Shown here piece after piece: positions 9,353 to 64,000 of a DNA stretch of 64,000 bases (position 1 is the first letter of the stretch; each line of letters starts with the position of its first letter). A model generated the notes under the pieces. It ran no database searches and was not told where the DNA came from. It saw only the letters and a program-made list of their open reading frames with translations. Source of the DNA: Brevundimonas lenta (GTDB lineage Bacteria > Pseudomonadota > Alphaproteobacteria > Caulobacterales > Caulobacteraceae). The position numbers and the translations under genes are program-made. Location of the stretch: assembly GCF_014196335.1 (NCBI RefSeq), contig NZ_JACIDM010000001.1:744001-808000 (forward strand), in the 5' to 3' direction.

Positions 9353-9869
9353 GACCGCAGCGGCCGCAGCCGTCATGGCGACGCTGGCGCTGGCCGCCTG
9401 CAACAAGGGCCCGGCGACGGTGGACGAGACCGCCGACGTGAACGCACGCGCGGCCCAGTTCTTCCTGACCAACAACGCCAAGGCGGAGGGGGTGAAAACC
9501 CTGCCGTCGGGCGTGCAGTACAAGATCCTGCAGTCGGGCCCCGCAGGCGGCGAGAGCCCGGACCGGAACGATCTGGTTCGCGTGGAGTACGAAGGCAGCC
9601 TGACGGACGGTACGGTGTTCGACAGCTCGTTCGAACGCGGCCAGCCGGCGGTCTTCACCCTGGGCACGGTCGTCGACGGCTGGACCGAGGCGCTGCAGCA
9701 CATGAAGGTCGGCGACGAATGGGTCGTCTATCTGCCGCCCGAGAAGGGCTACGGCGAACAGGGCCAGGGCCCGATCCCGCCGAACAGCGTGCTGGTGTTC
9801 CGGCTTAAGCTGCTGGATATCGCCCGCGCGCCGGGCGGCGAGACAGGTGTCGGCTCGGCCAACGGGTAA
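9333..9869 (+). CDS. FKBP-type peptidyl-prolyl isomerase, lipoprotein
   Basis: 178 residues from an ATG at 9333 that lies inside the end of the threonine ammonia-lyase gene. The signal MTFAWARTAAAAAVMATLAL ends in the lipobox LAAC with Cys23. Residues about 45-160 are an FKBP domain: an N-terminal helical segment, then VRVEYEGSLTDGTVFDSSFERG, VDGWTEALQHMKVGDEW, PEKGYGEQGQG and IPPNSVLVFRLKLLDI, which carry the FKBP active-site aromatics. It is expected to assist folding in the periplasm from a membrane anchor. Overlap with the upstream gene indicates cotranscription, though no functional link is evident. Confidence 0.93.
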   Translation: MTFAWARTAAAAAVMATLALAACNKGPATVDETADVNARAAQFFLTNNAKAEGVKTLPSGVQYKILQSGPAGGESPDRNDLVRVEYEGSLTDGTVFDSSFERGQPAVFTLGTVVDGWTEALQHMKVGDEWVVYLPPEKGYGEQGQGPIPPNSVLVFRLKLLDIARAPGGETGVGSANG

Positions 9870-49808: not shown

Positions 49809-51455
49809 TCAGTCGCAGCCCGGGGCGGCGGCCGGCAGGACGGGCGAGGCGAGGCCCGCATTCCAGTTCCACGCCATGGTCCCGTCGGCCTTGCGGCGGC
49901 ACATGGCGCGTTCGTGCAGGGCGTACATGCCCGGCATCAGACCGGTCTCCATGACCGGACCGTCGCGGAACGCGATGTAGGCGCCCGAGGCGTCGTACGG
50001 GGTCCACGCCGGAGCATCGGCGGCCTGGGGCCGGCCGGTGCGGGCGAAGCTGGTCCAGTAGTCGACCATGGCGGCGGACAGGGCGGCCTCTTCCGCGGTC
50101 TGCGGGATCTTCGGCCAGAGCGGCGGCGTGCGGTCCAGAAGGCCGAACATGTAGGGCAGTTCGGCGGCATGGAAGGCGTGCAGGCCGGCGCTGTCGGAGG
50201 CCGGATAGCCGTGGTCGAACAGGTAGAGGAAGGAGGCCTGGCCGCGGGCGGTCTGGCTGCGGGCGAGGCGTTCGGCGGTCCAGCCGTAGAGGGCGTCGCG
50301 GCTGGCGGCGATGACGCTCTCCTCCATGTCGGTGGAGGGATAGAGCCGCAGGAAGTCGTCGGCGAGGTCGCCGTAGCGCTCGCGGATGACGCGTTCGTAT
50401 TCCGCGGCGCCGGCGGGCGGACGCGGGGCCAGCATGCGGAGCGAGCGGATCTCGCCGCTGTTGAAGCCGGCGAGGATGGGCACGGGCGCCTGTTCGCCGC
50501 GATCGAAGATGTCGACGAGCTGGCCGGGCAGGAGCTTGCCGTCGACGGCGCCGAAGGGCGCGAAGCCGGACATGGCGGCGGTGTTGGTGATCTCCTGGGC
50601 GTCCATGGCGCGCAGGACGCGGGTGGACGGCGCCTGGAGGGTGCGGGCCAGGCGAGCGCCGGCGTCCTCGGCGGACGGGGCGCCGAAGCGGGCCTCCTTC
50701 AGCTCGGGCGTGGAGATCATGTAGGCGCTCTGGGCGATGGCCTTGTGGAACAGGCCCCGGGCGTAGGGCGAGGCCATCAGATACATGACGCTGAGGCCGC
50801 CGGCGGACTCGCCCGCGATGGTGACGTTGTCAGGATCGCCGCCGAAGGCCGCGATGTTCTGACGGACCCAGTGCAGGGCCTGAATCTGGTCCATCAGGCC
50901 GTAGTTGCCCGATATACCCTGGGGCGATTCCGCGCTGAGGTCGGGATGGGCCAGCCAGCCGAGGACGCCGAGGCGGTAGTTGATCGAGACGACGACGGCG
51001 CCGTCTGCGGCCAGGGTGGAGCCGTCGTACAGCGGCTCCTTGCTGGAGCCGGCGACCAGGGCGCCGCCGTGGATCCAGACGATGACGGGCGCCTTGCCGG
51101 CGACGTCGGGGGTCCAGACGTTCAGCGACAGGCAGTCCTCGCTGGTGGGGCCCAAGTCCGACGAATAGATGGTGCGGACCGGCGAGACGGGCTGGACGCA
51201 GGCGGGACCGAAGCGGGTCGCGTCGCGGACGCCCTGCCACTGCGGGGCCGGCGCGGGCGGGCGCCAGCGGAGCGGACCGACCGGGGCGGCGGCGTAGGGA
51301 ATGCCCTTGAACGCGGAGACGCTGCCGTCGGCGACGCCGCGCACGGCGCCCGCAGGTGCGGTGACGACCGGGGCGGTCTGGGCCGAGGCCGCGGCCGGGG
51401 CGAGGAGGGCCCCGACGAGGCAGGCGGCGGCGAGGGCTTTCAGCGACGGGGTCAT
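49809..51455 (-). CDS. Type-B carboxylesterase, secreted
   Basis: 548 residues. ATG 51455 has GGAGG seven bases upstream. A signal peptide (MTPSLKALAAACLVGALLAP, cleavage near ASAQ) precedes an alpha/beta-hydrolase of the cholinesterase/type-B class: the N-terminal RWRPPAPAPQWQGVRDATRF, EDCLSLNVWTP, PVIVWIHGGALVAGS oxyanion loop and nucleophile GESAGGLSV. The Glu (NSGE region) and His (late HAAELPYMFG) of the triad are at the usual positions. It overlaps the MFS stop (ATGA), so transporter and esterase form one unit. It would cleave an ester in the periplasm. Confidence 0.92.
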   Translation of the reverse strand: MTPSLKALAAACLVGALLAPAAASAQTAPVVTAPAGAVRGVADGSVSAFKGIPYAAAPVGPLRWRPPAPAPQWQGVRDATRFGPACVQPVSPVRTIYSSDLGPTSEDCLSLNVWTPDVAGKAPVIVWIHGGALVAGSSKEPLYDGSTLAADGAVVVSINYRLGVLGWLAHPDLSAESPQGISGNYGLMDQIQALHWVRQNIAAFGGDPDNVTIAGESAGGLSVMYLMASPYARGLFHKAIAQSAYMISTPELKEARFGAPSAEDAGARLARTLQAPSTRVLRAMDAQEITNTAAMSGFAPFGAVDGKLLPGQLVDIFDRGEQAPVPILAGFNSGEIRSLRMLAPRPPAGAAEYERVIRERYGDLADDFLRLYPSTDMEESVIAASRDALYGWTAERLARSQTARGQASFLYLFDHGYPASDSAGLHAFHAAELPYMFGLLDRTPPLWPKIPQTAEEAALSAAMVDYWTSFARTGRPQAADAPAWTPYDASGAYIAFRDGPVMETGLMPGMYALHERAMCRRKADGTMAWNWNAGLASPVLPAAAPGCD

Positions 51456-52777
51456 GCGGCGCCTCCGGCCTGACGGTCGTTGCGTCCCAGGACTTTGGCC
51501 AGCCACAGGAAGAGGCCGATGGCGGCGAAATAGACCGGGATCAGGGTGTAGAGGGCGATCTGCAGCGAGTTCTCCGGGTGCGTGGCGCGGAAGAAGTCGC
51601 TGGCCATGCCGACGTAGGTCGGGCCGACGCCCATGCCGATGAAGTTCATCACCAGCAGCAGCAGGGCGCCGGACATGACGCGCTGGTTGGGCCGGACCTC
51701 GCCCTGGACCAGGGCCACCGAGGACGACAGGTAGAAATAGTTAAGGAAGGTCGGGCCGATCAGGAAGGCCAGGGCCAGCGGCCACGACGGGGCCCAGACG
51801 AAGGCGATGTAGAAGGGCACGGCCAGGGCCAGCGAGATGGCGGGCAGCATGGCGTAGGCGCGCTTCGACCGGCGGGTGAAGCGGTCGATCAGCCAGCCCG
51901 AGACGAAGATGCCGCCGCTCATGCCGATGGCGACGACGAGGGCGTACCAGAGGGCGACGTTCTCAAGCGTCATGCCCTTTTCGCGCATCAGGAACAGGAC
52001 GGCGAAATTGCCCAGACCGTAGGTGACGATCTGGGTGACGCCGCTGCCGAGCGAGGCGAGGACCAGGGTCGGGCGCGAGAAGAACATGCGCACCGTCTCC
52101 CAGAAGCCGGCGCGGGCCGGGCCGTCGGTGGCGGAGACGGGATCCAGGCCGCCGCGCTTCGGTTCCTTGACGATCAGGATCAGGGCCAGGGCGGCGACCA
52201 GGCCGACCAGACCGATGACGATGAAGGCCGCGCGCCAGCTGAAGGCCGCGGCGACCGAGGCGCCGAAGGCGATGCCGATGGCGGCGCCGACGGGCGGGCC
52301 GAGGTTATAGATGCCCAGCGCCATGCCGCGACGGCCGGGCGGGAAGGAGTCGGTGATGATGGCGTAGGACGGGGGCACGCCGCCGGCCTCGCCGAAGCCG
52401 ACGGTCATGCGCGCGACGGCCAGTTCGCCGTAGTTGCGGGCCATGCCGCAGGCCATGGTCGCGGCGCTCCAGATGCCGCAGGCGACGGCGACGACGGCGA
52501 CCCGGTTGGTGCGGTCCGCCAGCCAGCCGACCGGGATGGCGATGAAGCAGTAGAAGAATGCGAAATAGAGGCCGCCCAGAAGGCCCAACTGACTGTCGCT
52601 GATGTTCAGCGTGTCCTGGATGGGCTTGGCCAGGATCGACAGCAACTGCCGGTCGAGGAAGTTCAGCACATAGATGAACCACAGGGCCCCGAGGGTGATC
52701 CAGGCGCCCCTGCCGACGCCTTGCGGTTTCGTCGTCGGCGGCGCGTCGAGGCCGATGGCGGCGTCTTTCTGGCTCAT
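51452..52777 (-). CDS. MFS transporter (spinster-like)
   Basis: 441 residues with 12 helices. WITLGALWFIYVLNFLDRQL and the following LSILAKPIQDTLNISDSQLG form the first helix and loop of the anion/spinster-like MFS group; GWLADRTNRVAVVAVACGIW is the loop 2-3 motif and RMTVGFGEAGGVPPSYAIIT is typical of spinster-like carriers of lipids, steroids or organic acids. Direction of transport is not evident. The downstream esterase start overlaps its stop. The TetR gene lies 62 bases upstream on the same strand, so TetR-MFS-esterase may be one operon. Confidence 0.9.
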   Translation of the reverse strand: MSQKDAAIGLDAPPTTKPQGVGRGAWITLGALWFIYVLNFLDRQLLSILAKPIQDTLNISDSQLGLLGGLYFAFFYCFIAIPVGWLADRTNRVAVVAVACGIWSAATMACGMARNYGELAVARMTVGFGEAGGVPPSYAIITDSFPPGRRGMALGIYNLGPPVGAAIGIAFGASVAAAFSWRAAFIVIGLVGLVAALALILIVKEPKRGGLDPVSATDGPARAGFWETVRMFFSRPTLVLASLGSGVTQIVTYGLGNFAVLFLMREKGMTLENVALWYALVVAIGMSGGIFVSGWLIDRFTRRSKRAYAMLPAISLALAVPFYIAFVWAPSWPLALAFLIGPTFLNYFYLSSSVALVQGEVRPNQRVMSGALLLLVMNFIGMGVGPTYVGMASDFFRATHPENSLQIALYTLIPVYFAAIGLFLWLAKVLGRNDRQAGGAA

Positions 52778-52839
52778 GGTCGTTTCCTCGGTGATGCGGG
52801 CGTCGAGGCCCGTCTATTTTTCGGAGTGACGGAGGGGCG

Positions 52840-53541
52840 TCATGGCTCCCCCGCCTTGCGCCGTTCAGCGGCGCGGCTGTTGCAGATGCCGACGAAGCCG
52901 TGGGCCATGAAGGCGGCCATGCGGGCCTTGATGGCCTCGAAGTCGTCGGACTTGCACAGGCCGCCGGACAGCTGGTCGATCCGGCCGGTGCGGGCGAGCG
53001 TCAGGGTCAGGGCGCCGGTGACGAAGTGATAGCCCCAGAAGACGTCCTCCTCGGCGCAGTCGGGCATGGCCTTCTTCAGCAGGCCGATGAGGCGCAGGAC
53101 GACCGGGTCGTAGAGGCGGTCCATGACCTCGGCGCCCCAGGCCGGGGTGTTGTTGATCTGGGCGCTGAGGGCGCCGAAATGGCGCCAGCCCTCGCCGCCG
53201 GTGGAATAGGTGTCGAGGTCGGTGTCGAGGAAGGCGCGCAGGGCGCCCTCGACCGTCGGCTTGCCGTCGACGGAGGCCTCGTAGGCGTCGAGTGCGTCCA
53301 TGCGGCGGCCGCTGGTGACGGGCGCGCGGCGCGCCATCACCTTGTCGAACACCTCCTGCTTGTCGGTGAAGTAGTAGTGGATCAGCGACTTGTGGACGCC
53401 GACCTTGTCGGCGATGTCCTTGATGGTGACCCCGTGCAGGCCGTGCCGGGAGAACAGCTCCTCGGCGGCGTCCAGCAGCTGTTCCAGACTCTCGGCGCGC
53501 TGTTCCGCCTTGCGGCGCCGGGGACGGGGCGGGGTGGTCAT
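52840..53541 (-). CDS. TetR family transcriptional regulator
   Basis: 233 residues from ATG 53541. The N-terminal HTH is RAESLEQLLDAAEELFSRHG followed by VTIKDIADKVGVHKSLIHYYFTDKQEV. The C-terminal ligand domain resembles the acyl-CoA/xenobiotic responsive TetR types (RHFGALSAQINNTPAWGAEV, WGYHFVTGALTLTLARTGRI). It stands among transport and acyl-CoA genes and is the best candidate to bind the inverted repeat at 57539-57572. A longer frame to 53610 exists but would run into the upstream gene's end. Confidence 0.9.
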   Translation of the reverse strand: MTTPPRPRRRKAEQRAESLEQLLDAAEELFSRHGLHGVTIKDIADKVGVHKSLIHYYFTDKQEVFDKVMARRAPVTSGRRMDALDAYEASVDGKPTVEGALRAFLDTDLDTYSTGGEGWRHFGALSAQINNTPAWGAEVMDRLYDPVVLRLIGLLKKAMPDCAEEDVFWGYHFVTGALTLTLARTGRIDQLSGGLCKSDDFEAIKARMAAFMAHGFVGICNSRAAERRKAGEP

Positions 53542-53611
53542 GACCTGAACCTCGAGGCGGTCCGGCGTCACCGTGAAAAGGCCCGCCGACTCAATGGAGA
53601 CGGCGGTCATC

Positions 53612-55201
53612 CTATGCAGCTCCGTAGGTTGCGCGAAGCTGCTGCTTGTTGATCTTGCCGGTTGCGGCGAGAGGCATGGTTTCGACGCGGACGATCCGCT
53701 CGGGAATCCACCAGTCCGCGACCCGGCCCTTGAGGCTGGCCTTGAGGGCGCTGTCGTCGATCTGCTGGCCCTGGGCGGGCTCGACGACCATCAGCGGACG
53801 CTCGCCCCATTTGGCATCCGCCGTGCCGATGACGGCGACGAGGCCGATGGAGGGGAGGGCGCCGATGATCTCCTCGATCTCGACCGGATTGATCCATTCG
53901 CCGCCCGACTTGATCAGGTCCTTGGCGCGGCCGGCGATGGTCAGGTTGCCGGCGTCGTCGATGATCGCCAGGTCGCCGGTGTCGAACCAGCCGTCGGCGT
54001 CCAGCGCGGTTTCCGGGGCGTTGAAGTAGCGCTGGACGACGCTGTGGCCGCGCACCTTGAGGTGGCCGACGACGTTGCGCTGTTCGGGCAGGGGCGTTCC
54101 GGACGCGTCGGTGAGGAGAAGGTCGAGGCCCATGGGCGGGCGGCCGGCGCCGCGGGCCGCGCCCGGCGTGGTGCTGCGCGGTGAGAGGGTGCCCTGGGGC
54201 GACAGCTCGGTCATGCCCCAGCTGGTCTGGACCGTGGCGCCGAGACGGGTCTCCATGCGCTTCATCAGGGTGTCGGGGCAGCTGGAGCCGCCGATGACGA
54301 CGCGCTGGAGGGTGGGGGTGTCGCCGCCCGCGGCGTCGAGATGATCCAGCAGGCCGAGCCAGACGGTGGGGACGCCGACGGCGACGGTGACGCCGTGGGT
54401 CTGGATCAGACGGGCGAGGCTGGCGCCGTCGGTGACGCGGCCGGGCAGGACGAGGCTGGCGCCGACCGCCGGCCCCGCGAACGGCAGGCCCCAGGCGTTG
54501 GCGTGGAACATGGGCACGGCGACCAGCACCACGTCCTCGGCGGTCAGGGCGAGGGCGTCGGCCTGCAGCGAGCGGATGGTGTGCAGGTAGTTGGAGCGGT
54601 GGGTGTAGGCGACGCCCTTGGGCGCGCCGGTGGTGCCCGAGGTGAAGCAGAGGCCGGCCAGGGCGGTCTCGTCGAACTGACCCCAGGGCGCGGGGCGGCC
54701 GGCGGCGATGAGGGCTTCCAGGGGCGTGCCGGCGCCGCGGGTCGAGACGACGCGGTCGTCGGCCTCGTCGAGCACGATGAGATGTTCGAGGCAGGGGCAG
54801 GCGGCCATCAGCGCTTCGGCGACGGCGCGCAGGCCTGCGCCGATGGCGAGGACGCGGTCGCCGGCCTCGATGACCATGGCAGTCAGGTGGGCGAGCGTCA
54901 GGCGGGGATTGAGCGTGTGGCAGACGAGGCCGGCGCCCATGGAGGCGTACCAGAGCTCGACATGGTGCTGGGTGTTCCAGGCGAGGGTGGCGATGCGATC
55001 GCCGGGTGCGAGGCCGAGATCGAGCAGGGCGCCGGACAGGCGGTTGGCGCGATCGCGAAGGTCCGCATAGCCGACGGCGGCGTCGTCATGGTCGCCGGCG
55101 GTGATGACCCGGGCTGAGCCGTGCCACTTGGCGCCGTGATCCAGGAAGCGATCCACGGTCAGGGCGTAGTCCTGCATCGGGCTGGGGGTCGGCGCGATCA
55201 T
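53612..55201 (-). CDS. Long-chain/medium-chain acyl-CoA synthetase
   Basis: 529 residues (ATG 55201; ATG 55177 is the alternative). AMP-forming ligase making acyl-CoA from a carboxylic acid. The motifs are complete: P-loop LCFTSGTTGAPKGVAYTHRS, adenine motif SWGMTELSPQGTLS, DGWFDTGDLAIIDDAGNLTI and the hinge/lysine loop GRAKDLIKSGGEWINPVEIE, with a final MPLAATGKINKQQLR. The opening MQDYALTVDRFLDHGAKWHG is of the FadD3/medium-chain type. It would activate the acid released by the esterase. Confidence 0.93.
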   Translation of the reverse strand: MIAPTPSPMQDYALTVDRFLDHGAKWHGSARVITAGDHDDAAVGYADLRDRANRLSGALLDLGLAPGDRIATLAWNTQHHVELWYASMGAGLVCHTLNPRLTLAHLTAMVIEAGDRVLAIGAGLRAVAEALMAACPCLEHLIVLDEADDRVVSTRGAGTPLEALIAAGRPAPWGQFDETALAGLCFTSGTTGAPKGVAYTHRSNYLHTIRSLQADALALTAEDVVLVAVPMFHANAWGLPFAGPAVGASLVLPGRVTDGASLARLIQTHGVTVAVGVPTVWLGLLDHLDAAGGDTPTLQRVVIGGSSCPDTLMKRMETRLGATVQTSWGMTELSPQGTLSPRSTTPGAARGAGRPPMGLDLLLTDASGTPLPEQRNVVGHLKVRGHSVVQRYFNAPETALDADGWFDTGDLAIIDDAGNLTIAGRAKDLIKSGGEWINPVEIEEIIGALPSIGLVAVIGTADAKWGERPLMVVEPAQGQQIDDSALKASLKGRVADWWIPERIVRVETMPLAATGKINKQQLRATYGAA

Positions 55202-55254
55202 CCGTGGGGGGCAGTCCAAACAGTTACAGGGGCGCCGGGAAGCCGGCGGCGGTT

Positions 55255-55281
55255 GCGGGGGCGGCTGTGGGCCGCCCCCGC
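55255..55281. terminator. GC-rich hairpin between TonB receptor and acyl-CoA synthetase genes
   Basis: GCGGGGGCGG (55255-55264) pairs with CCGCCCCCGC (55272-55281). It lies behind the TonB-receptor stop on the minus strand. No T-tract follows, so it could be a partial terminator or mRNA-stabilising stem separating the two genes. Confidence 0.4.
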
Positions 55282-55288
55282 GCCGGGA

Positions 55289-57463
55289 TCAGAAGGTCCG
55301 CATCAGGTTCAGGCCGATCTGCCGCGGCGGTCCGGCGTAACGCAGGCCCGCATTGACGGCGGCGATGTAGGTCTGGTCCGTGGCGTTCAGCGCGTAGGCG
55401 GCGAGCGTCCATTCGTCGAGCTGATAGGTCAGCTTCAGATTGACGATGTTGCGCGCCTCCAGCTTGTCGCCCAGGGCCTCGTTGTTGAAGATCGAGGTCC
55501 AGGACTCGCCGATGTGCGAGTAGTCGATGCGCGGCGTCAGGATGGCTCCGCCTTCGAGGGCGAACTCGTACTGAAGCCCCGCGTTGAAGGTGAGCTCCGG
55601 CGCGTAGCTCTGGCTGTTGCCTTCCAGGTTCTGGCAGTTGCCGGCGGCAGGCCCCGTCTGGGGGTTGCAGGGCAGGCGCGCCAGGCGCGGATCGACGGCG
55701 TAGAACTGGCCCAGCTCGGAGCTGGAGAGGGAGCCGCCGACGTCGACGGACCACTGGCCGAAGCGCGCCTGGGCGGAGGCCTCGATGCCCTTCAGCACGG
55801 TTTCGCCGTTCACGTTCACGATCGAGTTGAACAGCGGCACCGTCGGGTCGCCGACGATGACCTGGAAGCCCTCGTAGACCATGTAGTAGGCGCCCAGCTG
55901 GGTGCGGACGCGACCATCGAACATGGTCGATTTCCAGCCCAGTTCGTAGTCGATGACGTCTTCCGGCCCGAAGGAGCTGGCGGGCACGTAGAAGTTCGGC
56001 GCGTTCAGGCCGCCCATCTTGAAGCCCGTGGCGACGAAGCCGTAGACGAAATTGTTGTCGTCGAGCTTGTAGTTGACGCTCAGCTTGCCGGTGGTCTTTT
56101 CGGCGGTGACCTCGTCGTTCTGCAGCAGGGTCAGGCCGAAGGCCGGGTAGGTCGTGTAGACGTTGTCGTTGGTCGAGGTGCTTTCCGACCAGCGGGCGCC
56201 CAGCTGGATCTGCAGGTTCTCAGACACGTCGTAGCTGATCTGGCCGAAGACGGCCTGGGTCTCCTTCGGCGTCTCGCCGAAGATGTAGTAGTCGACCACG
56301 CCTTCGGGGAAGCCGACGTGGTAGGCGCCCTGCGGGAAGGTGGTGACGGGGAAGACCACGTCGTCGTACTGCCAGAAGGCGCCCAGGATCCAGGTCAGGC
56401 GCTGGTCGTCCGGCGAGACGATGTTGAACTCCTGCGACCACACCTCTTCCTCGACGCGGTCGTAGAAGGTGTTGTTCAGCGCGCTGGTGCCGTCCAGATC
56501 GGTCGAGAATTCGCTGATCCCGTCCTGGTAGCCGGTGATCGAGCGCAGGGTGATGCCGTTGTCGAGCACGTAGCTGACGTTCAGCGACACGCGCGCGGTC
56601 TCGTCGTGACCCGAGTGCGGGCCGTTGGCGGTGATCTTGAACGGATCGTTGGTGGCCAGCGCCGGATCGGCCGGATAGCCGCCGAAATCGAGGTTGTTGT
56701 AGTCGCCCTTCAGCAGGACGCGGAGGGCCGGCGTCGGGGTCCACAGGACGCTGGCGCGGTAGCTCTTGGAGTCGATTTCGCCCGGGTGGCCCGAATAGGT
56801 GCCGGTGATCTCGTGGAAGCTGTCGCGGATTTCGCTGTTCAGGGCGAAGCGCGCCGCCAGGGTGTCGCTGATCGGCACGTTGATCGCGCCCTGCAGCTTG
56901 AGGTTCCCGTAGGTTCCGGCCTGGCCCATGACGTAGCCGTTCACGCCGGTGAAGTCGGGGTTGCGGGCGTTGATGAAGACCGCGCCGCCCGTGGCGTTGG
57001 TGCCGGCGAAGGTGCCCTGCGGGCCGCGCAGCAGTTCAACGCTGCCGATGTCGTAGTAGGGCTCGGTCTGGAAGTAGCCGGGGAAGACGGCCACGCCGTC
57101 ACGGTAGGTGGTGACGCCGACGCCGATGGCCGTGGTCGGCTCCGACTTGCCGATGCCGCGCACGTTGAAGAAATTGCCCTGACCGAAATTCTGGACCGTG
57201 GTCGAGGGAGCCACGAACTGGAGCTGCTCCAGCGAGGTCACCCCACGGTTCTCCAGGTCCTCGCCGCTCAGGACCGTGGCGGCCACCGCGGTTTCCTGCA
57301 GATTGGTGGTGCGGCGTTCGGCGGTGACGACGACGTCGTCAAGCGTGTCGGCCTGTTCGTCCTGGGTGTTCTGGTTCGCAGGACGTGCGTCCTGGGCGTT
57401 GGCGGCGCCTGCGGCGAACAGGAGCGCAGCGGCAGACGCGGTTATCCAGAGCTTCCGGCTCAT
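55289..57463 (-). CDS. TonB-dependent outer-membrane receptor
   Basis: 724 residues. Signal peptide MSRKLWITASAAALLFAAGA (cleavage near ANAQ), TonB box DDVVVTAERR near residue 43, plug domain (about 50-165: GVTSLEQLQFVAPSTTVQNF, VELLRGPQGTFAGTNATGGA) and a 22-strand barrel ending in an aromatic residue (GLNLMRTF). Actively imports a large or scarce ligand with energy from TonB. Neighbours (esterase, CoA ligase, SDR) suggest a hydrophobic acid or ester rather than a siderophore. It diverges from the SDR gene, with an operator-like repeat between. Confidence 0.95.
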   Translation of the reverse strand: MSRKLWITASAAALLFAAGAANAQDARPANQNTQDEQADTLDDVVVTAERRTTNLQETAVAATVLSGEDLENRGVTSLEQLQFVAPSTTVQNFGQGNFFNVRGIGKSEPTTAIGVGVTTYRDGVAVFPGYFQTEPYYDIGSVELLRGPQGTFAGTNATGGAVFINARNPDFTGVNGYVMGQAGTYGNLKLQGAINVPISDTLAARFALNSEIRDSFHEITGTYSGHPGEIDSKSYRASVLWTPTPALRVLLKGDYNNLDFGGYPADPALATNDPFKITANGPHSGHDETARVSLNVSYVLDNGITLRSITGYQDGISEFSTDLDGTSALNNTFYDRVEEEVWSQEFNIVSPDDQRLTWILGAFWQYDDVVFPVTTFPQGAYHVGFPEGVVDYYIFGETPKETQAVFGQISYDVSENLQIQLGARWSESTSTNDNVYTTYPAFGLTLLQNDEVTAEKTTGKLSVNYKLDDNNFVYGFVATGFKMGGLNAPNFYVPASSFGPEDVIDYELGWKSTMFDGRVRTQLGAYYMVYEGFQVIVGDPTVPLFNSIVNVNGETVLKGIEASAQARFGQWSVDVGGSLSSSELGQFYAVDPRLARLPCNPQTGPAAGNCQNLEGNSQSYAPELTFNAGLQYEFALEGGAILTPRIDYSHIGESWTSIFNNEALGDKLEARNIVNLKLTYQLDEWTLAAYALNATDQTYIAAVNAGLRYAGPPRQIGLNLMRTF

Positions 57464-57538
57464 CGGTCATCCTCCTCGATGTTTCCTCGGCGCTCTTCCG
57501 GCACCATGGAGGCGACCGTCCCACCGTCACGGTTGGTT

Positions 57539-57572
57539 GTCAACATTCACTAGGCGGCGGGTGAATATTGAC
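57539..57572. promoter_or_regulatory. Operator-like inverted repeat in the TonB/SDR divergent promoter
   Basis: GTCAACATTCAC (57539-57550) and GTGAATATTGAC (57561-57572) are 12-base arms with a single mismatch around a 10-base spacer. On the minus strand a perfect TTGACA (57543-57538) overlaps the left arm and can serve as the -35 of the TonB gene; on the plus strand TTGACC overlaps the right arm. A regulator bound here would control both genes, and the TetR at 52840-53541 is the likely candidate. Confidence 0.65.
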
Positions 57573-57671
57573 CTTTTGACGAAGATCGCTTCAGTCTGCG
57601 CCGCGCACCGCGAAGTATGCGGGCGTCGCCGGTCGTCGTGCGCGGCCGTCGGAATTTCGGGGAAATACGCC

Positions 57672-58580
57672 ATGACGATCGATCTGAGCCATCGCACCGC
57701 AATCGTAACGGGGGCCGGCGGCGGCCTGGGCCGCAGCCACGCCATCGCCCTGGCGAAGCGCGGCGCGCGCGTCGTCGTCAACGACCTGAGCCCCGGCGCG
57801 GCCGATGCGGTGGCGGCGGAAATCCAGGCCCTGGGCGGCAAGGCCATGCCGTGGACCTGCAGCGTCACCGACCGCACGGGCGTCGAGGACATGGTGCGCG
57901 AAACGATCGCCCGCTGGGGCTCGATCGACATCGTCGTCAACAACGCGGGCATCCTGCGCGACCGCACCTTCGCCAACCTGGACCTCGACGATTTCGCCAT
58001 GGTCATCGACGTGCACGTGATGGGCTCGGTGAACCTGACCAAGGCGGTGTGGCCGCACATGCGCGAGCAGGGTTATGGCCGGATCGTCTTCACGACCTCG
58101 TCGTCGGGGCTGTACGGAAACTTCGGCCAGTCGAACTATTCGGCGGCGAAGATGGCGCTGGTCGGCCTGATGCAGACCCTGGCCCTGGAAGGCCAGAAGT
58201 ACGGCATCCACGTGAACTGCCTGGCGCCCAGCGCGGCCACCCAGATGACCGAGAAGCTGTATTCGCCCGAGGACCTGCGCGGCCTGTCGACGGACCTGGT
58301 CAGTCCGGGCGTCGTGGCCCTGGTGAGCGAGAATGCGCCGACGCGGACGATCCTGCTGGCCGGCGCGGGCGCCTTCGAACAGGCCCACATCACGATGACG
58401 AACGGCATCCATGTCGGCGATGCGGACGACGCGGCCGAGCAGATCGAGGCGCAGTGGGCGCGGATCGCGGACCGTTCGGGCGAGCAGGTCCCGGAGTCCG
58501 GCGCGGCCCAGTACCATCACGAGGTGAACCACCCCGGAAAGCCGGTCCCGGCGCGGGCGCCTGAACGGGTCGACGCCTGA
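57672..58580 (+). CDS. SDR oxidoreductase, 3-hydroxyacyl-CoA dehydrogenase-like
   Basis: 302 residues. Classical SDR: NAD(P) site VTGAGGGLGRSHA at about 13-25, NNAG at about 92, catalytic Ser in TTSSSGLYGNFG and the YSAAK pair. The sequence resembles the N-terminal dehydrogenase of peroxisomal multifunctional enzyme 2 (17-beta-HSD4), whose bacterial relatives act on 3-hydroxyacyl-CoA or steroid side chains. The C-terminal 50 residues form an extension beyond the SDR fold. GGGGAAA lies seven bases before the ATG. It is the only plus-strand gene of the island. Confidence 0.92.
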   Translation: MTIDLSHRTAIVTGAGGGLGRSHAIALAKRGARVVVNDLSPGAADAVAAEIQALGGKAMPWTCSVTDRTGVEDMVRETIARWGSIDIVVNNAGILRDRTFANLDLDDFAMVIDVHVMGSVNLTKAVWPHMREQGYGRIVFTTSSSGLYGNFGQSNYSAAKMALVGLMQTLALEGQKYGIHVNCLAPSAATQMTEKLYSPEDLRGLSTDLVSPGVVALVSENAPTRTILLAGAGAFEQAHITMTNGIHVGDADDAAEQIEAQWARIADRSGEQVPESGAAQYHHEVNHPGKPVPARAPERVDA

Positions 58581-59978
58581 TCAGAAGGTGATGCGCGAGC
58601 GGACGCTGAGGACGGTGATCGAGTCCCGCGTCGGATAGAGGCTGGGGTTGAGGACCAGCTGCAGCACCGGGGTCAGGGCGAAGTTTTCGGTCAGGTGGTA
58701 CCGGTAGAAGAGCTCCGCCGTGTACTGGGTTTCGAGGAAGTCGTTCGACGGACTGGTCCAGCCGCCTGCGAATCCGAGCAGGTCGGAAGGCGCGGTCGGC
58801 GGGCGCCAGCCGAGGCCGGCGCTGAGGTTCGCGTCGGCCAGCCAGCCGTTCGACCAGCCGCCGCGCACGAACCACATGAAGTCCTCGCCGGCCATGAAGT
58901 TGGCGTTGAAGGCGACGCCGTAAGCGCGGGGACTGCCGTCGTTGAGGGCGTCGCGGTACCAGGTGGTGACGTGGAAATTGTTGCGGTCCATCGGGCCGCG
59001 GGCGTGGATCGGCATGCCCGCGCCGGACAGGCCGCTCCAGCCGGTTTCGAAGAAATAGAATTTGGCGCTCTCGCCGAAGAAGTCGTCGACGGTCCAGCCG
59101 GTGTCGTCGCTGTACGGCGTGAAGATGCCGCCCTTCAGATACAGGCCGCCCTCGGTCGGGAAGCCCGCCGCGACCGCGCCGAAGCCGCGCAGGGGAACGG
59201 CGATGGTGGGGCTGGTCGAGAACTGCAGGCTGAGGAACTGACGGTTGTCGTCGAAGAAGGGATAGGCGTTGACGAAGTTCGGCGCGAAGATCTTGCCGAC
59301 GGCGTACTGGAAGCGGTTGCCGGCGAGATTCTGCCGGATGTAGGCCTGGGTCACGCCGAGGCTGAAGTCGCCCCAGGTGGCCGCGGTGGGCACCCCCGAA
59401 CCCGCGCCGATGCCGGCCTGGAGCGGGGGCAGGTCGGTGCCGACCGGGCGCCGGTCCTCGATGGCCATGTCGAACATCAGGGCGTCGGGTTCGCCGCGGT
59501 TATCGACGGCCCACGACAGGTTGAGGGTGAATTTGCTGCCGACGGCGTCCTGCTGGTCGATGCGGCTGTTGGAGTAGTTCTGCCACAGCAGGCCCCATGA
59601 GCCGCCGATGGTCAGGCCGGTGCGTTCGGTCAGGCCCTGCTTCCAGGCGAACCAGGGGGCGAGCGCCGTCTCGCGGCGCGGGCCGGGCGGGCCGTCGGGC
59701 TCGAGGTCGCCCTCGACGGACAGGGTGGTCTCCAGCAGCGTGGGGTAGAGCGGTTCGTCATCGTCCGTCGACGGAGCGTCCTGGGGCGCGGCGTCGGGAG
59801 CGACGGCTGTCGGATCGGGCGGCGCTTCGGGATCGGGGTGGGTGATCACCGGCAGACCGGCCGCTTCGTCGGCGGGCGCTATGGCGTCCTGGGCGATGGC
59901 CGGGAAGGCGGGGAGGAGCAGCAGGGCGAAGGCGAGCGAGGCCCTGCCGACGCCCGTGCGTGGATCGCAGGAACGCAT
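58581..59978 (-). CDS. OprB-like carbohydrate-selective porin family protein
   Basis: 465 residues. A signal peptide (about residues 12-30, FALLLLPAFPAIAQ) is followed by an acidic, Pro-rich linker (residues about 31-80: PDPEAPPDPTAVAPDAAPQD). A beta-barrel then begins TGLTIGGSWGLLWQNYSNSR and continues with alternating strands such as FSLGVTQAYIRQNLAGNRFQ and YAVGKIFAPNFVN, ending in an aromatic Phe (VLSVRSRITF). The pattern fits OprB-like outer-membrane proteins. The proline/acidic linker is unusual for such porins. It ends one base after the SDR stop (convergent) and lies four bases after the CoA-transferase gene, with which it is probably cotranscribed. Confidence 0.82.
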   Translation of the reverse strand: MRSCDPRTGVGRASLAFALLLLPAFPAIAQDAIAPADEAAGLPVITHPDPEAPPDPTAVAPDAAPQDAPSTDDDEPLYPTLLETTLSVEGDLEPDGPPGPRRETALAPWFAWKQGLTERTGLTIGGSWGLLWQNYSNSRIDQQDAVGSKFTLNLSWAVDNRGEPDALMFDMAIEDRRPVGTDLPPLQAGIGAGSGVPTAATWGDFSLGVTQAYIRQNLAGNRFQYAVGKIFAPNFVNAYPFFDDNRQFLSLQFSTSPTIAVPLRGFGAVAAGFPTEGGLYLKGGIFTPYSDDTGWTVDDFFGESAKFYFFETGWSGLSGAGMPIHARGPMDRNNFHVTTWYRDALNDGSPRAYGVAFNANFMAGEDFMWFVRGGWSNGWLADANLSAGLGWRPPTAPSDLLGFAGGWTSPSNDFLETQYTAELFYRYHLTENFALTPVLQLVLNPSLYPTRDSITVLSVRSRITF

Positions 59979-59982
59979 GGGA

Positions 59983-61614
59983 TCAACTCTCCCACACGGG
60001 CCGATCGCCGCCGCGCACGCGCAGCAGGGGGGCTGGCCAGCGGCCGGGCGTCCGGGACAGTTTGACCAGTGGCGCCAGGCGGTGGACCTCGCCGTAGCAG
60101 GTCGTGCCGGTGATCGTTTCCGGCGGGACCATGCGATGTTCGGGACGGCTGACGTCGACCTCGCGGTTCGGGAAGACGCCGAGGCTCTGGTACCACATGG
60201 CGGCGCGCGAGAGGCTGATGCGGACGTGGTAGCTGCCGCCCTCGGTCGCCCGCCGGCGCAGGGCCTCGATGACCCCGGCCGCGCCCAGATAGCCGGCGAC
60301 ATAGTCGTTGAGGACCAGGGTGGGCGGGAAGGCCGGAGCCGTCGTCGAGGTGCCGGCGGCGGGATAGTTCTCGCCGAGCGACGGCTGGCCGCCGCCCTCC
60401 AGCAGGGTGAAGCCGGTGACGGTCAGGGCCTCCATGTCGAAGCCGCCGCGGTCCTGCCAGGGCCCGTCCCAGCTGTAGCAGCGCATGGACATGTAGATGA
60501 CGCCGGGCTTCCGCCGGACCACCTCGTCGACGCCGAAGCCGAGTCGTTCGATGCCGCGGCCGCTGAAGCCCTCGATGAACACGTCGGTCTGTGGAAGCAG
60601 GGCCTGGAGCGCCTGTTTGTGCGGGTCCTGGGTCAGGTTCAGCAGGGTCGACCGCATGCCGACGTTGACGTCGGTCCAGATGGCCTCGTGCTCGAACGAC
60701 TGGTCGCGGACGACGTGCAGCACCTCGGCGCCGTATTCGGACAGGGTGCGGGCGGTGGTGGAGCCGGCGATGACATGGGTCAGGGACAGGGCGCGGATAC
60801 CCGACAAAGGCTGTTGCGGGTTCGGCGTCCACGGCACCGGCGGCGAGTCGGCCACCTTGACGATGTCGATCAGCGGCCGCGCGCCGAGGTGGCGTCCTTC
60901 GGGGTGGGCGGCCCATTCCTCCGTCGAGCGGTGGATGGCGCCGACGGCGCGGTTTTCGGCGAGGGCATCCTCCAGCGCTTCGGCGTCCCAGGTGCGGACC
61001 GCGGCGGCGATGGACTCGCGGTTCGGCGTGGCCTTCAGCACGTTGAGCGCGCGGTCGTAGAGGTGCGGATAGGCCCCGGTGATGTTGGCGAAGCGGCCGT
61101 CCTTCGTCTCGAACGGCACGAACGACATCGGATTGCCGAGGCCGACGGGCGCCTGCAGCCAGCGGTCGTTGATCAGCGGCACGAAGGAGAAGTTGGCGAC
61201 CACCGGATCGTCGGCCGGCAGGGCGCCGACCATCACGCGGTGCTGCATGATCAGGGTGATGAGCGGGTTCACCCCGTAGAGGGCCTCGCGCAGATCGATG
61301 GCCACGTCCTGGGTCTGGCCGGTGCGGTCCTTCCAGATCGCCGCCGCGCCCAGCGCCGCAGCCGTGGCGGGCAGGGCCATGGAGGTGGCGATGCGGAAGC
61401 GGCTGTGGATCAGGGGGTCGGCGCCGGTGAAGCTGACGCCGCCGCCGGCGTCCCCGGGACTGCGCCCGATGTCGGCGAGGAAGGCGGTGAAGGCGCGATC
61501 TATATTGAAATCAGCGGCTTGTGCTGCCGCCATGGGTGAGAATTCGGAAGAGATCATGGCCCCGGCGACAGCATATCCGGTCGCCTTGACCACGCTTCTG
61601 CGGCTGATATCCAA
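59983..61614 (-). CDS. Family III CoA-transferase with twin-arginine signal
   Basis: 543 residues. The start MDISRRSVVKATGYAVAGAM has the Tat motif SRRSVVK and a hydrophobic segment to about residue 35, so export is predicted. The rest is a two-part CaiB/BaiF fold: N-terminal half with GQTQDVAIDLREALYGVNPL and C-terminal half with LSGIRALSLTHVIAGSTTAR, DVFIEGFSGRGIERLGFGVD, VIYMSMRCYSWDGPWQDRGG and GGSYHVRISLSRAAMW. The catalytic Asp of formyl-CoA transferase is not at its usual place (SLSRAA replaces the SLxDA pattern), as in this subfamily generally. Function in the periplasm would be puzzling, as CoA substrates are cytosolic. Confidence 0.88.
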   Translation of the reverse strand: MDISRRSVVKATGYAVAGAMISSEFSPMAAAQAADFNIDRAFTAFLADIGRSPGDAGGGVSFTGADPLIHSRFRIATSMALPATAAALGAAAIWKDRTGQTQDVAIDLREALYGVNPLITLIMQHRVMVGALPADDPVVANFSFVPLINDRWLQAPVGLGNPMSFVPFETKDGRFANITGAYPHLYDRALNVLKATPNRESIAAAVRTWDAEALEDALAENRAVGAIHRSTEEWAAHPEGRHLGARPLIDIVKVADSPPVPWTPNPQQPLSGIRALSLTHVIAGSTTARTLSEYGAEVLHVVRDQSFEHEAIWTDVNVGMRSTLLNLTQDPHKQALQALLPQTDVFIEGFSGRGIERLGFGVDEVVRRKPGVIYMSMRCYSWDGPWQDRGGFDMEALTVTGFTLLEGGGQPSLGENYPAAGTSTTAPAFPPTLVLNDYVAGYLGAAGVIEALRRRATEGGSYHVRISLSRAAMWYQSLGVFPNREVDVSRPEHRMVPPETITGTTCYGEVHRLAPLVKLSRTPGRWPAPLLRVRGGDRPVWES

Positions 61615-61747
61615 AATACGCCCTCCGGCCCCCGGCGAGCTGAAATGAAATGCGCCGTCGTCTCTTGCGCGCAGCCGACGCTACGGCCGATATCGCATCG
61701 AAATCCTGCAGCGAATAGTATTGCAGGGGTCGAATACAGGGTTCTTT

Positions 61748-63031
61748 ATGGCGCAGTTCAGGGAAAACCCTGACGGTATGCACGTCCTGGTGGTCGTCGC
61801 GGCGGCCGGACAGGCCGTGGCCTACGCCCTGTCGGTGATGCTGGCGCGGAGTCTCGGGGCGGCGGGGTTCGAGGCCTATGTGGTGGCGTCGGCGGCCTTC
61901 ATCGTCATGGCGTCGTTCGCGCCGCTCGGTTCCGACAAACACGTGCTCAGCCGGTTGCCCGGATTGTTGCAGCGCGGCGACTGGAGTCAGGCGTCGGGGC
62001 TGCTGCGGTTCGGCGCGCGACGGACGCTGGCGACGGCCCTGGTCACCGGTGCGGTGGTCGGGGGACTGAGCTGGTCGATGCGCGATCCGGGCGACGCGGT
62101 GTGGCCGGCGATGGTCGTGACCTGTCTGTCGCTGCCGGCGGGCGCCCTGGCCCACTACGGCGTCGAGGCGTTGAGCGCGGCCGGGCGTCCGCTGCGGGCG
62201 CTGGCGTTGTTCAAGCTGCTGACTCCGGTTCTGGCGCTGGTGCTGGCGGGGATGCTGATGCTGAGGTCGGTTCCGCTGACTGGCGCGGCCGCGGTGGGGT
62301 GCTGGGGCGTGGCGTGGGTCGTGACCCTGGGCGCCATGATCGCAGCCCTGCGACGGGCGGCGCCGCAAGCGCTGTCCGCGCCCGCCGACGTCGGGGAGGC
62401 CGCCGTCTGGCGCGTCGAGAGCCGGCCGTTCTTCGTCTATCGCGTGTCGCTGGCGATTCTGGCCCAGGCCGGGGTGATCGGGCTGGAGCTGATGCAGGCG
62501 TCGGCGGCGGCGATCGGCGCTTATGCCGCGGCGAGCGCGACGGTGGGCGTGGCGGCGGTGCTGGCGACCTCCACCAACCGGGCCTACGGCCGCAAGCTGT
62601 CGCTGCTGATGGAGCAGGGGGATTTCGAGGCCGTGATGACGGCCCGGCGTGAGCGGCTGCGCCGGCTGGGGCCGGCGGTGATCGTGTTCCTGCTGGCGAT
62701 CTTCGTGTTTTCGCGTCCGCTGCTGGCGATGTTCCGGCCCGAGTTCGCGGCGGAGGGCGTCGCGGCGCTGAGGATCCTGGCGGTCGCGACCGGGGTGACG
62801 GTGCTGTTCTCGCTGGCGCCGACCTGGCTGAAGATCCGGCAGCGGCGCGGGGTCATCTATGCCGCCGTGGCTGTGGCGGCGGCGGTGCAGGTGGTCCTGC
62901 TGATCGTGCTGATCCCGCCGTTCGGGGCGACCGGCGCGGCGCTGGCCTACGCCCTGTGCGTGGGCGGGATGTACGGCGTCCTGGCCGTGGTGGCTCACCG
63001 TGAGGCGATGCGCCTGGGCGGCGTCCGATGA
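61748..63031 (+). CDS. Wzx/MATE-like polysaccharide flippase
   Basis: 427 residues from ATG 61748 (AGGG eight bases upstream). About 12 hydrophobic helices are seen, opening with HVLVVVAAAGQAVAYALSVM and including FIVMASFAPLGSDKHVLSRL and the late GVIYAAVAVAAAVQVVLLIV. The pattern, with charged residues between helices and a GFEAY motif early, fits oligosaccharide flippases of the Wzx/PST group, which translocate lipid-linked sugars across the inner membrane. No glycosyltransferases lie nearby in the window. A 12-bp hairpin follows the stop. Confidence 0.82.
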   Translation: MAQFRENPDGMHVLVVVAAAGQAVAYALSVMLARSLGAAGFEAYVVASAAFIVMASFAPLGSDKHVLSRLPGLLQRGDWSQASGLLRFGARRTLATALVTGAVVGGLSWSMRDPGDAVWPAMVVTCLSLPAGALAHYGVEALSAAGRPLRALALFKLLTPVLALVLAGMLMLRSVPLTGAAAVGCWGVAWVVTLGAMIAALRRAAPQALSAPADVGEAAVWRVESRPFFVYRVSLAILAQAGVIGLELMQASAAAIGAYAAASATVGVAAVLATSTNRAYGRKLSLLMEQGDFEAVMTARRERLRRLGPAVIVFLLAIFVFSRPLLAMFRPEFAAEGVAALRILAVATGVTVLFSLAPTWLKIRQRRGVIYAAVAVAAAVQVVLLIVLIPPFGATGAALAYALCVGGMYGVLAVVAHREAMRLGGVR

Positions 63032-63077: not shown

Positions 63078-64000
63078 TCAGACCGAAGGCGACCAGGGGT
63101 TCCAGCCCAGGCCGGGACCGGTCTGGGCGGTCGAGTAGAGGGTCTGGTTGCCGTCCAGCGCCCAGATGCGGCACGTGCCGTCGTTCTGCTGGCACACGGC
63201 GACCGAGCCGATGTGGGACGGCGATGCGCCGTTCCACACGCCGGACCACGACGACCACGGACCGCCCGGCGACTCCTGGAAGCTGCAACGCAACTGACCG
63301 CTGGTGTCGACGCCCCAGAGCGCGACGCTGCGGCTGCCGCCCTGCTGCGAGGCGGCGACCGTCTGCAGCGGCGGGGCGTTGTTCCAGCCGGCGGCGGACC
63401 AGCCGGACCAGCCGCCGCCCGGCGAGGTCTGGGCGTTCGAATAGACGGCGTTGTGCAGATCCACGACCCAGATGCGGACCGTGCCGTCGTTCTGTTGCGC
63501 CGCGGTCACCGAGATCAGGCCCGCGGGCGAGGCGTCGTTCCAGACGCCCGACCAGCCGGACCAGGGCCCGCCCGGCGTCTCCTGGAAGGTCGAGCGGAGC
63601 TGGCCGTCCATGTCGATGCCCCAGAGCTGGGCCCCGCGGGAGCCGCCCTGCTGGGAGGCTGCGATGGAGCGCAGCGTCGGGGCGCCGTTCCAGCCGGCAG
63701 GAGACCAGCCGGACCAGCCGCCGCCCGGCGAGGTCTGGGCGTTGGAGTACAGGGCGTTGTTCGCATCCAGCAGCCACAGGCGGACCGTGCCGTCGTTCTG
63801 CTGGGCCGCGGCGAGCGAGATGGCGTTGGAGGGCGAGGCGCCGTTCCAGACGCCGGACCAGGGCGACCAGGCGCCGCCGGGAGTCTCCTGGAAGGTCGAA
63901 CGCAGCTGGCCCGACGGATCCACGCCCCACAGCTGGGCGCCGCGCGAGCCGCCCTGCTGCGACGCCGCGATCATGGTCAGGGGCGGGGCGCCGTTCCACG
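63078..64000 (-). CDS. Tandem-repeat beta-propeller (tectonin/PLL-like) protein, 5' end beyond window
   Basis: The frame is open to the right edge; at least 306 residues are visible, ending in GLGWNPWSPSV. It consists of a double repeat of about 102 residues present three times: IAASQQGGSRGAQLWGVD..GQLRSTFQETPGG.WSxWSGVWNGASP, then QQNDGTVRLWxLDxxNALYSNAQTSPGGGWSGWS. Each half looks like one propeller blade with regularly spaced Trp, as in tectonin and Photorhabdus-type lectins. The repeats are almost identical at protein level. The likely role is binding to sugars or a surface, and the N-terminus (secretion signal) is not visible. It converges with the flippase gene. Confidence 0.75.
   Translation of the reverse strand, partial: WNGAPPLTMIAASQQGGSRGAQLWGVDPSGQLRSTFQETPGGAWSPWSGVWNGASPSNAISLAAAQQNDGTVRLWLLDANNALYSNAQTSPGGGWSGWSPAGWNGAPTLRSIAASQQGGSRGAQLWGIDMDGQLRSTFQETPGGPWSGWSGVWNDASPAGLISVTAAQQNDGTVRIWVVDLHNAVYSNAQTSPGGGWSGWSAAGWNNAPPLQTVAASQQGGSRSVALWGVDTSGQLRCSFQESPGGPWSSWSGVWNGASPSHIGSVAVCQQNDGTCRIWALDGNQTLYSTAQTGPGLGWNPWSPSV

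Follow-up and report, generated by a model that had tools for sequence, protein, structure and literature searches.

CoA chemistry is taken to be cytosolic, acylation of the envelope being explained by membrane proteins that ferry acyl groups, and to our knowledge family III CoA-transferases are known only inside cells, where CoA is. Where, then, does a CaiB/BaiF-type protein of Brevundimonas lenta act if it begins with a twin-arginine (Tat) leader, and what could it do there? We analysed its gene within a window, a stretch of 64,000 nucleotides of B. lenta DNA whose numbering is used below. The gene and the elements of its start are as follows.

59983..61614, minus strand: Tat-leader family III (CaiB/BaiF) CoA-transferase-like gene, 543 aa, TTG start.
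61621..61626, minus strand: Shine-Dalgarno sequence GGAGGG, 6 nt 5' of the TTG start, read from the sequence.
61516..61614, minus strand: predicted Tat signal peptide, aa 1-33, with cleavage between AQA and A, from the leader comparison and AlphaFold2 (AF2) pLDDT below 50 for residues 1-31.
61597..61602, minus strand: twin arginine R5-R6, invariant in 23/23 intact close orthologues.

The product matches Pfam CoA_transf_3 (PF02515) at 133 bits (cut-off 23.3, E = 1.7e-38). Its N-terminus reads (M)DISRRSVVKATGYAVAGAMISSEFSPMAAAQA up to the predicted cleavage site and continues as ADFNID, and it shows the tripartite layout of a Tat signal peptide, with SRRSVVK, a hydrophobic stretch and the AQA-A junction. 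By our own rule-based test (RR, hydrophobic stretch and AxA site) the leader has the features of a Tat substrate, S/T-R-R-x-phi-phi followed by a hydrophobic region and AxA, and the host genome encodes Tat machinery, with a TatC gene at 232.7 bits.

Searches of sampled relatives, of the class and of the phylum returned mostly 29-42% relatives, the majority aligning only inside the query, together with one leader-bearing orthologue at 56% identity from Pseudoxanthomonas daejeonensis (L040, a locus that also appears as L085/L069); in the plasmid collection, a 64% copy with a leader turned up in Microvirga ossetica. Scanning 84,980 species genomes with a three-sequence alignment yielded 80 loci, a reach limited by the use of two peptide patterns. 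Tat-type leaders (RR, hydrophobic stretch and AxA) were present in 25 of the 80, comprising essentially all intact members at at least 49% identity plus the distant L098 (40%). The exception near this threshold is L095, which is leaderless and is 46% identical by local match and 49% over the alignment. At four further loci (L094, L102, L119 and L120) the gene is broken or short or has no clear leader motif, L094 and L119 being broken gene copies, and about 45 less similar relatives are leaderless, L098 alone among the distant ones having a leader. As a control, 61 weaker relatives from whole genomes gave one match to the rule, in read-through sequence 5' of the likely start.

Anchoring the leaders of 23 close orthologues, the window included, on the twin arginine revealed S (11) or T (9) at position -1 (S/T in 20/23), both arginines in all 23, F9/V5/L4/I3 at +3 and L14/V6 at +4, from which the consensus S/T-R-R-x-(F/V/L/I)-(L/V)-K emerges. 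Pairwise identity across these orthologues is 26% in the leaders, RR excluded, versus 63% in the mature parts; an invariant RR within otherwise fast-changing leaders shows that the motif is under selection. The first-pass annotation had described a twin-arginine leader ahead of a CaiB/BaiF-type protein and had set its absence from orthologues as the refuting outcome; the alignment came out for the leader, which all intact close relatives keep. Of the two explanations then offered, a non-cleaved relic is contradicted by the retention of RR, hydrophobic stretch and AxA in all intact close orthologues, the remainder being variable, and export of the protein is supported, at the level of sequence, by the same conservation.

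A cytosolic enzyme, with a leader that is a relic or fortuitous or with its true start 3' of the RR (GTG at V8), would agree with the TTG start, with the otherwise cytosolic family and with the existence of a leaderless outgroup that has a porin (see below), but we consider it very improbable given the RR kept in 23/23 leaders that are otherwise 26% identical. The GTG start in particular is disfavoured, as the Shine-Dalgarno sequence is spaced for the TTG and orthologues mostly have an ATG before the RR, TTG also being used in L075-L077. The frame has no start codon 5' of the TTG.

An hhalign comparison with the ordinary CaiB/BaiF paralogue at L001 divided the chain behind the leader into three segments.

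60829..61509, minus strand: aa 36-262, C-terminal half of a normal CaiB/BaiF chain (L001 141-354, probability 92).
60169..60822, minus strand: aa 265-482, N-terminal Rossmann half of a normal chain (L001 1-229, probability 99.9).
59986..60168, minus strand: aa 483-543, C-terminal tail of a normal chain (L001 334-379, probability 70).

The order is thus C-half, N-half, tail, and not the canonical Rossmann half, small domain, tail. The full CaiB/BaiF-type fold that had been claimed for this protein is therefore right in content, with the segment order rearranged according to both profile alignment and hhalign, and these alignments place the product in a rearranged branch of the superfamily, outside the canonical single-chain form. 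We know of no solved structure for this branch. The AF2 model has a pLDDT of 88.7 and a pTM of 0.90, with residues 1-31 below 50 and the leader disordered, as expected of a leader that is removed. Its top hits in the PDB are family III enzymes throughout, and only about 215-275 columns align with any one chain, which agrees with the rearranged order. The plasmid copy from M. ossetica (L067) carries an in-frame TAG (9808-9810) where the two halves join.

Two acidic positions in the Rossmann half bear on catalysis.

60304..60306, minus strand: D437, the canonical nucleophilic Asp (LVLND437Y), aligned with Rv3272 D175.
60436..60438, minus strand: D393 of the GGFD loop, D in 24/24 Tat members, E (31) or D (15) in non-Tat members.

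In a 70-sequence profile alignment to 5yit/5yiy, D437 falls on Rv3272 D175, in a column that reads A in the D175A mutant 5yiy; the column is D in 24/24 Tat members and in 45/46 leaderless members. The nucleophilic Asp is D169 in FRC and D175 in Rv3272. Work on YfdE assigns covalent catalysis to the equivalent Asp173/Asp177 (PMC3720670). The first half-copy (aa 36-262) has no Asp at the matching position in an alignment read by eye. The catalytic Asp, reported earlier as absent from both expected positions, is hence present as D437 and invariant in the Tat clade; the rearrangement of the chain seems to have hidden it. The non-transferase role that had been proposed from its absence loses that basis, the nucleophile being kept both in the exported clade and in nearly all leaderless relatives, and the best reading of the conserved residues is that the product is probably catalytically intact.

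Two genes adjoin the transferase in the window.

58581..59978, minus strand: OprB-family outer-membrane porin (Pfam OprB PF04966, 39.3 bits, cut-off 22.9).
61748..63031, plus strand: divergent MOP-superfamily (WzxE-like) inner-membrane flippase/transporter, 427 aa, assigned by AF2 fold match and as a conserved neighbour.

The porin gene lies 4 nt downstream of the transferase gene and is likewise a conserved neighbour. We compared 32 exported-type loci, broken copies included (31 distinct, as L069 and L085 are the same locus), with 51 leaderless ones. A porin of the window subfamily adjoins the gene in 28/32 exported-type loci (27 at at least 80 bits, and L072 at 69 bits), the four loci without a detected porin including some that are broken or at contig ends, and a window-type flippase lies within 17/32. 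Among the 51 leaderless loci neither the window porin subfamily nor the flippase was found, and the porin profile matched one, L095 of Bradyrhizobium, among the nearest outgroups, by a distant OprB-family porin. We therefore rejected chance adjacency of the porin (28/32 exported-type versus 1/51 leaderless loci, any OprB-family porin counted). The case of L095 suggests that the porin association may predate the leader, and that the porin by itself is no proof of a periplasmic site. In that genome (dw_411, L095:2058-7437) the porin gene is flanked by two leaderless CaiB/BaiF genes. The porin is downstream in most loci and upstream in L080, L081, L083 and L088, and the flippase may be divergent, convergent or downstream, an arrangement too variable for one frozen operon.

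The flippase returned no Pfam and no sequence-family match; its AF2 model (pLDDT 90) is closest in the PDB to the lipid III flippase WzxE (9g9p, TM 0.77/0.80). It shares its fold with the WzxE/MurJ/MATE proteins of the MOP superfamily, as its porin partner shares a Pfam family with OprB porins, but unlike known MOP flippases its subfamily has no Pfam match, occurs in 2/385 genomes of the class and has no polysaccharide locus that we noticed around it. A flippase match in genome G101 was set aside as a clue, as its neighbours are efflux genes and genes of sugar-transfer type, with neither a porin nor a CaiB/BaiF gene among them.

Uncleaved Tat anchors exist, and a conserved inner-membrane partner would suit a leader of this kind, which would tether the enzyme next to the flippase on the periplasmic side of the inner membrane. 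We regard this as improbable, since an AxA-type site follows the hydrophobic region in the leaders compared and the leader is disordered and of low confidence in the AF2 model.

In a tree of 70 mature sequences, 23 exported members form one branch (SH-aLRT 100). The leader label changes twice on this tree, against a mean of 20 when shuffled, and the porin label once; the second leader change is L098, whose placement is unsure because of its long branch. The exported members have a patchy distribution, occurring in Caulobacterales, Sphingomonadales, Hyphomicrobiales, Burkholderiales, Lysobacterales and Microbulbifer. No orthologue came from the other genomes sampled within the window's genus, which marks the gene as accessory; the species scan did return Brevundimonas sp. 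Root1279. The organism labels of L072 (a 12-kb contig of Nitrobacter winogradskyi), L074 (an Exiguobacterium MAG) and L120 (a cyanobacterium MAG) are doubtful and may reflect contamination or misassignment.

With a conserved leader, a catalytic Asp, the fold and the gene linkage in hand, we favour, at a probability of roughly 0.6, a family III acyl-thioester transferase that is exported by Tat, is catalytically intact and works in a porin/flippase envelope module. From what is known of these families, the enzyme would fold in the cytosol and be exported folded via Tat, which fits the interlocked dimers that family III enzymes form (PMC3720670, PMC9196870). Signal peptidase would cleave the leader after AQA, leaving a periplasmic enzyme for which the OprB-type porin may admit a small, probably carboxylic acid, substrate or release a product, with the WzxE-like MOP transporter as putative inner-membrane partner. 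D437 would accept the acyl group of a thioester, forming a mixed anhydride, and the thiol would then attack again and be handed on to another carboxylate; candidate periplasmic thiol carriers are CoA, pantetheine, glutathione or another. Against this reading, export and cleavage are predictions, L095 is leaderless with a porin, and we know of no CoA or acyl-CoA in the periplasm.

A second CaiB/BaiF protein, of 850 aa and two domains, is encoded at three loci (L072:6370-8922, L086:5478-6374 and L078:4767-7067). The proteins of L072 and L086 have Tat leaders of their own, STRRDAIRIGVGAV and ATRREVLVGLTGAV, respectively; the L078 protein is a relative, 63% identical, whose N-terminus is lost at a contig end. 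The L072 protein, read by eye, keeps an Asp at the matching motif of its second half. The Tat clade also has invariant motifs specific to it, RDQxFEHE, and DVNVGMRS where leaderless members mostly have GKRS. This altered pocket, like the want of a known periplasmic CoA pool, would suit an exported protein that is no longer a CoA-transferase, its fold being reused, for example, as an acyl hydrolase acting via D437 or as the porin's substrate-binding partner. We think such reuse rather unlikely, as all Tat-clade members keep D437 and D393, and L072 and L086 are predicted to export a second CaiB/BaiF protein too, that of L072 with its Asp. Returning to the acyl-thioester transferase, we tentatively propose, as a broader possibility that we hold with less than even confidence, that in some proteobacteria family III transfer, of CoA or of other acyl-thioester type, takes place in the periplasm from a thioester pool supplied via the WzxE-like transporter or the porin, and that the exported transferase, the OprB porin and the flippase, joined at some loci by another exported CaiB/BaiF protein, make up one horizontally spread envelope pathway.

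The window protein shares its fold, Rossmann half and nucleophilic Asp with FRC/YfdW (formyl-CoA transferase), YfdE, Rv3272 and SUGCT, but unlike these intracellular enzymes of 360-430 aa it has 543 aa, a Tat leader, a rearranged chain and porin/flippase neighbours. Closer are the leaderless rearranged CaiB/BaiF proteins of about 480 aa (from Bordetella, Belnapia, Nocardia, Bradyrhizobium and others), which align over their full length with the mature part at 33-49% identity but differ in lacking the leader and the flippase, in having the GKRS motif and, for the most part, Glu at position 393, and in that an OprB-family porin occurs only in L095, the closest of them. Extracytosolic acyl chemistry is described for MBOAT-SGNH (PatA/PatB) and acyltransferase-3 systems (PMC12148441, PMC9833829). 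These pass the acyl group through a membrane protein, whereas here a soluble thioester-type transferase seems itself to be exported. In the open-access literature we found no account of an exported CaiB/BaiF protein or of the transferase/porin/flippase trio, and a paper on P. aeruginosa Tat substrates mentions neither CoA nor transferase. A conserved, probably catalytically intact CoA-transferase-type enzyme that is, as predicted, exported folded and linked to a porin and a flippase in scattered proteobacteria would mean that the periplasm contains activated acyl thioesters or else that the fold has gained another extracytoplasmic role; the conserved leader and near-constant porin neighbour in about 25 bacterial genomes point to undescribed chemistry between the two membranes.

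The wider surroundings of these genes are less uniform. Positions 49809-58580 of the window hold a catabolic-looking cluster (carboxylesterase, MFS, TetR, acyl-CoA ligase, TonB-dependent receptor, SDR), and we discarded the acyl-CoA ligase, SDR, TonB receptor and MFS genes as a substrate clue because this neighbourhood is unconserved beyond a few close relatives. A Pfam tally of 102 neighbour ORFs of exported-type loci gave weak themes, glutathione S-transferase in 5 and patatin in 3; together with one gamma-glutamyltranspeptidase (L071), the former might hint at a glutathione link. Arginine deiminase genes lie near exported-type loci of different lineages (L074:10566-11801 and L069:8846-10153, the latter by eye), and HdeD-like DUF308 genes at L080 and L083. 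At 63078-63974 on the minus strand, the window encodes repeated GGxWSxWS-type units that look tectonin/lectin-like by eye.
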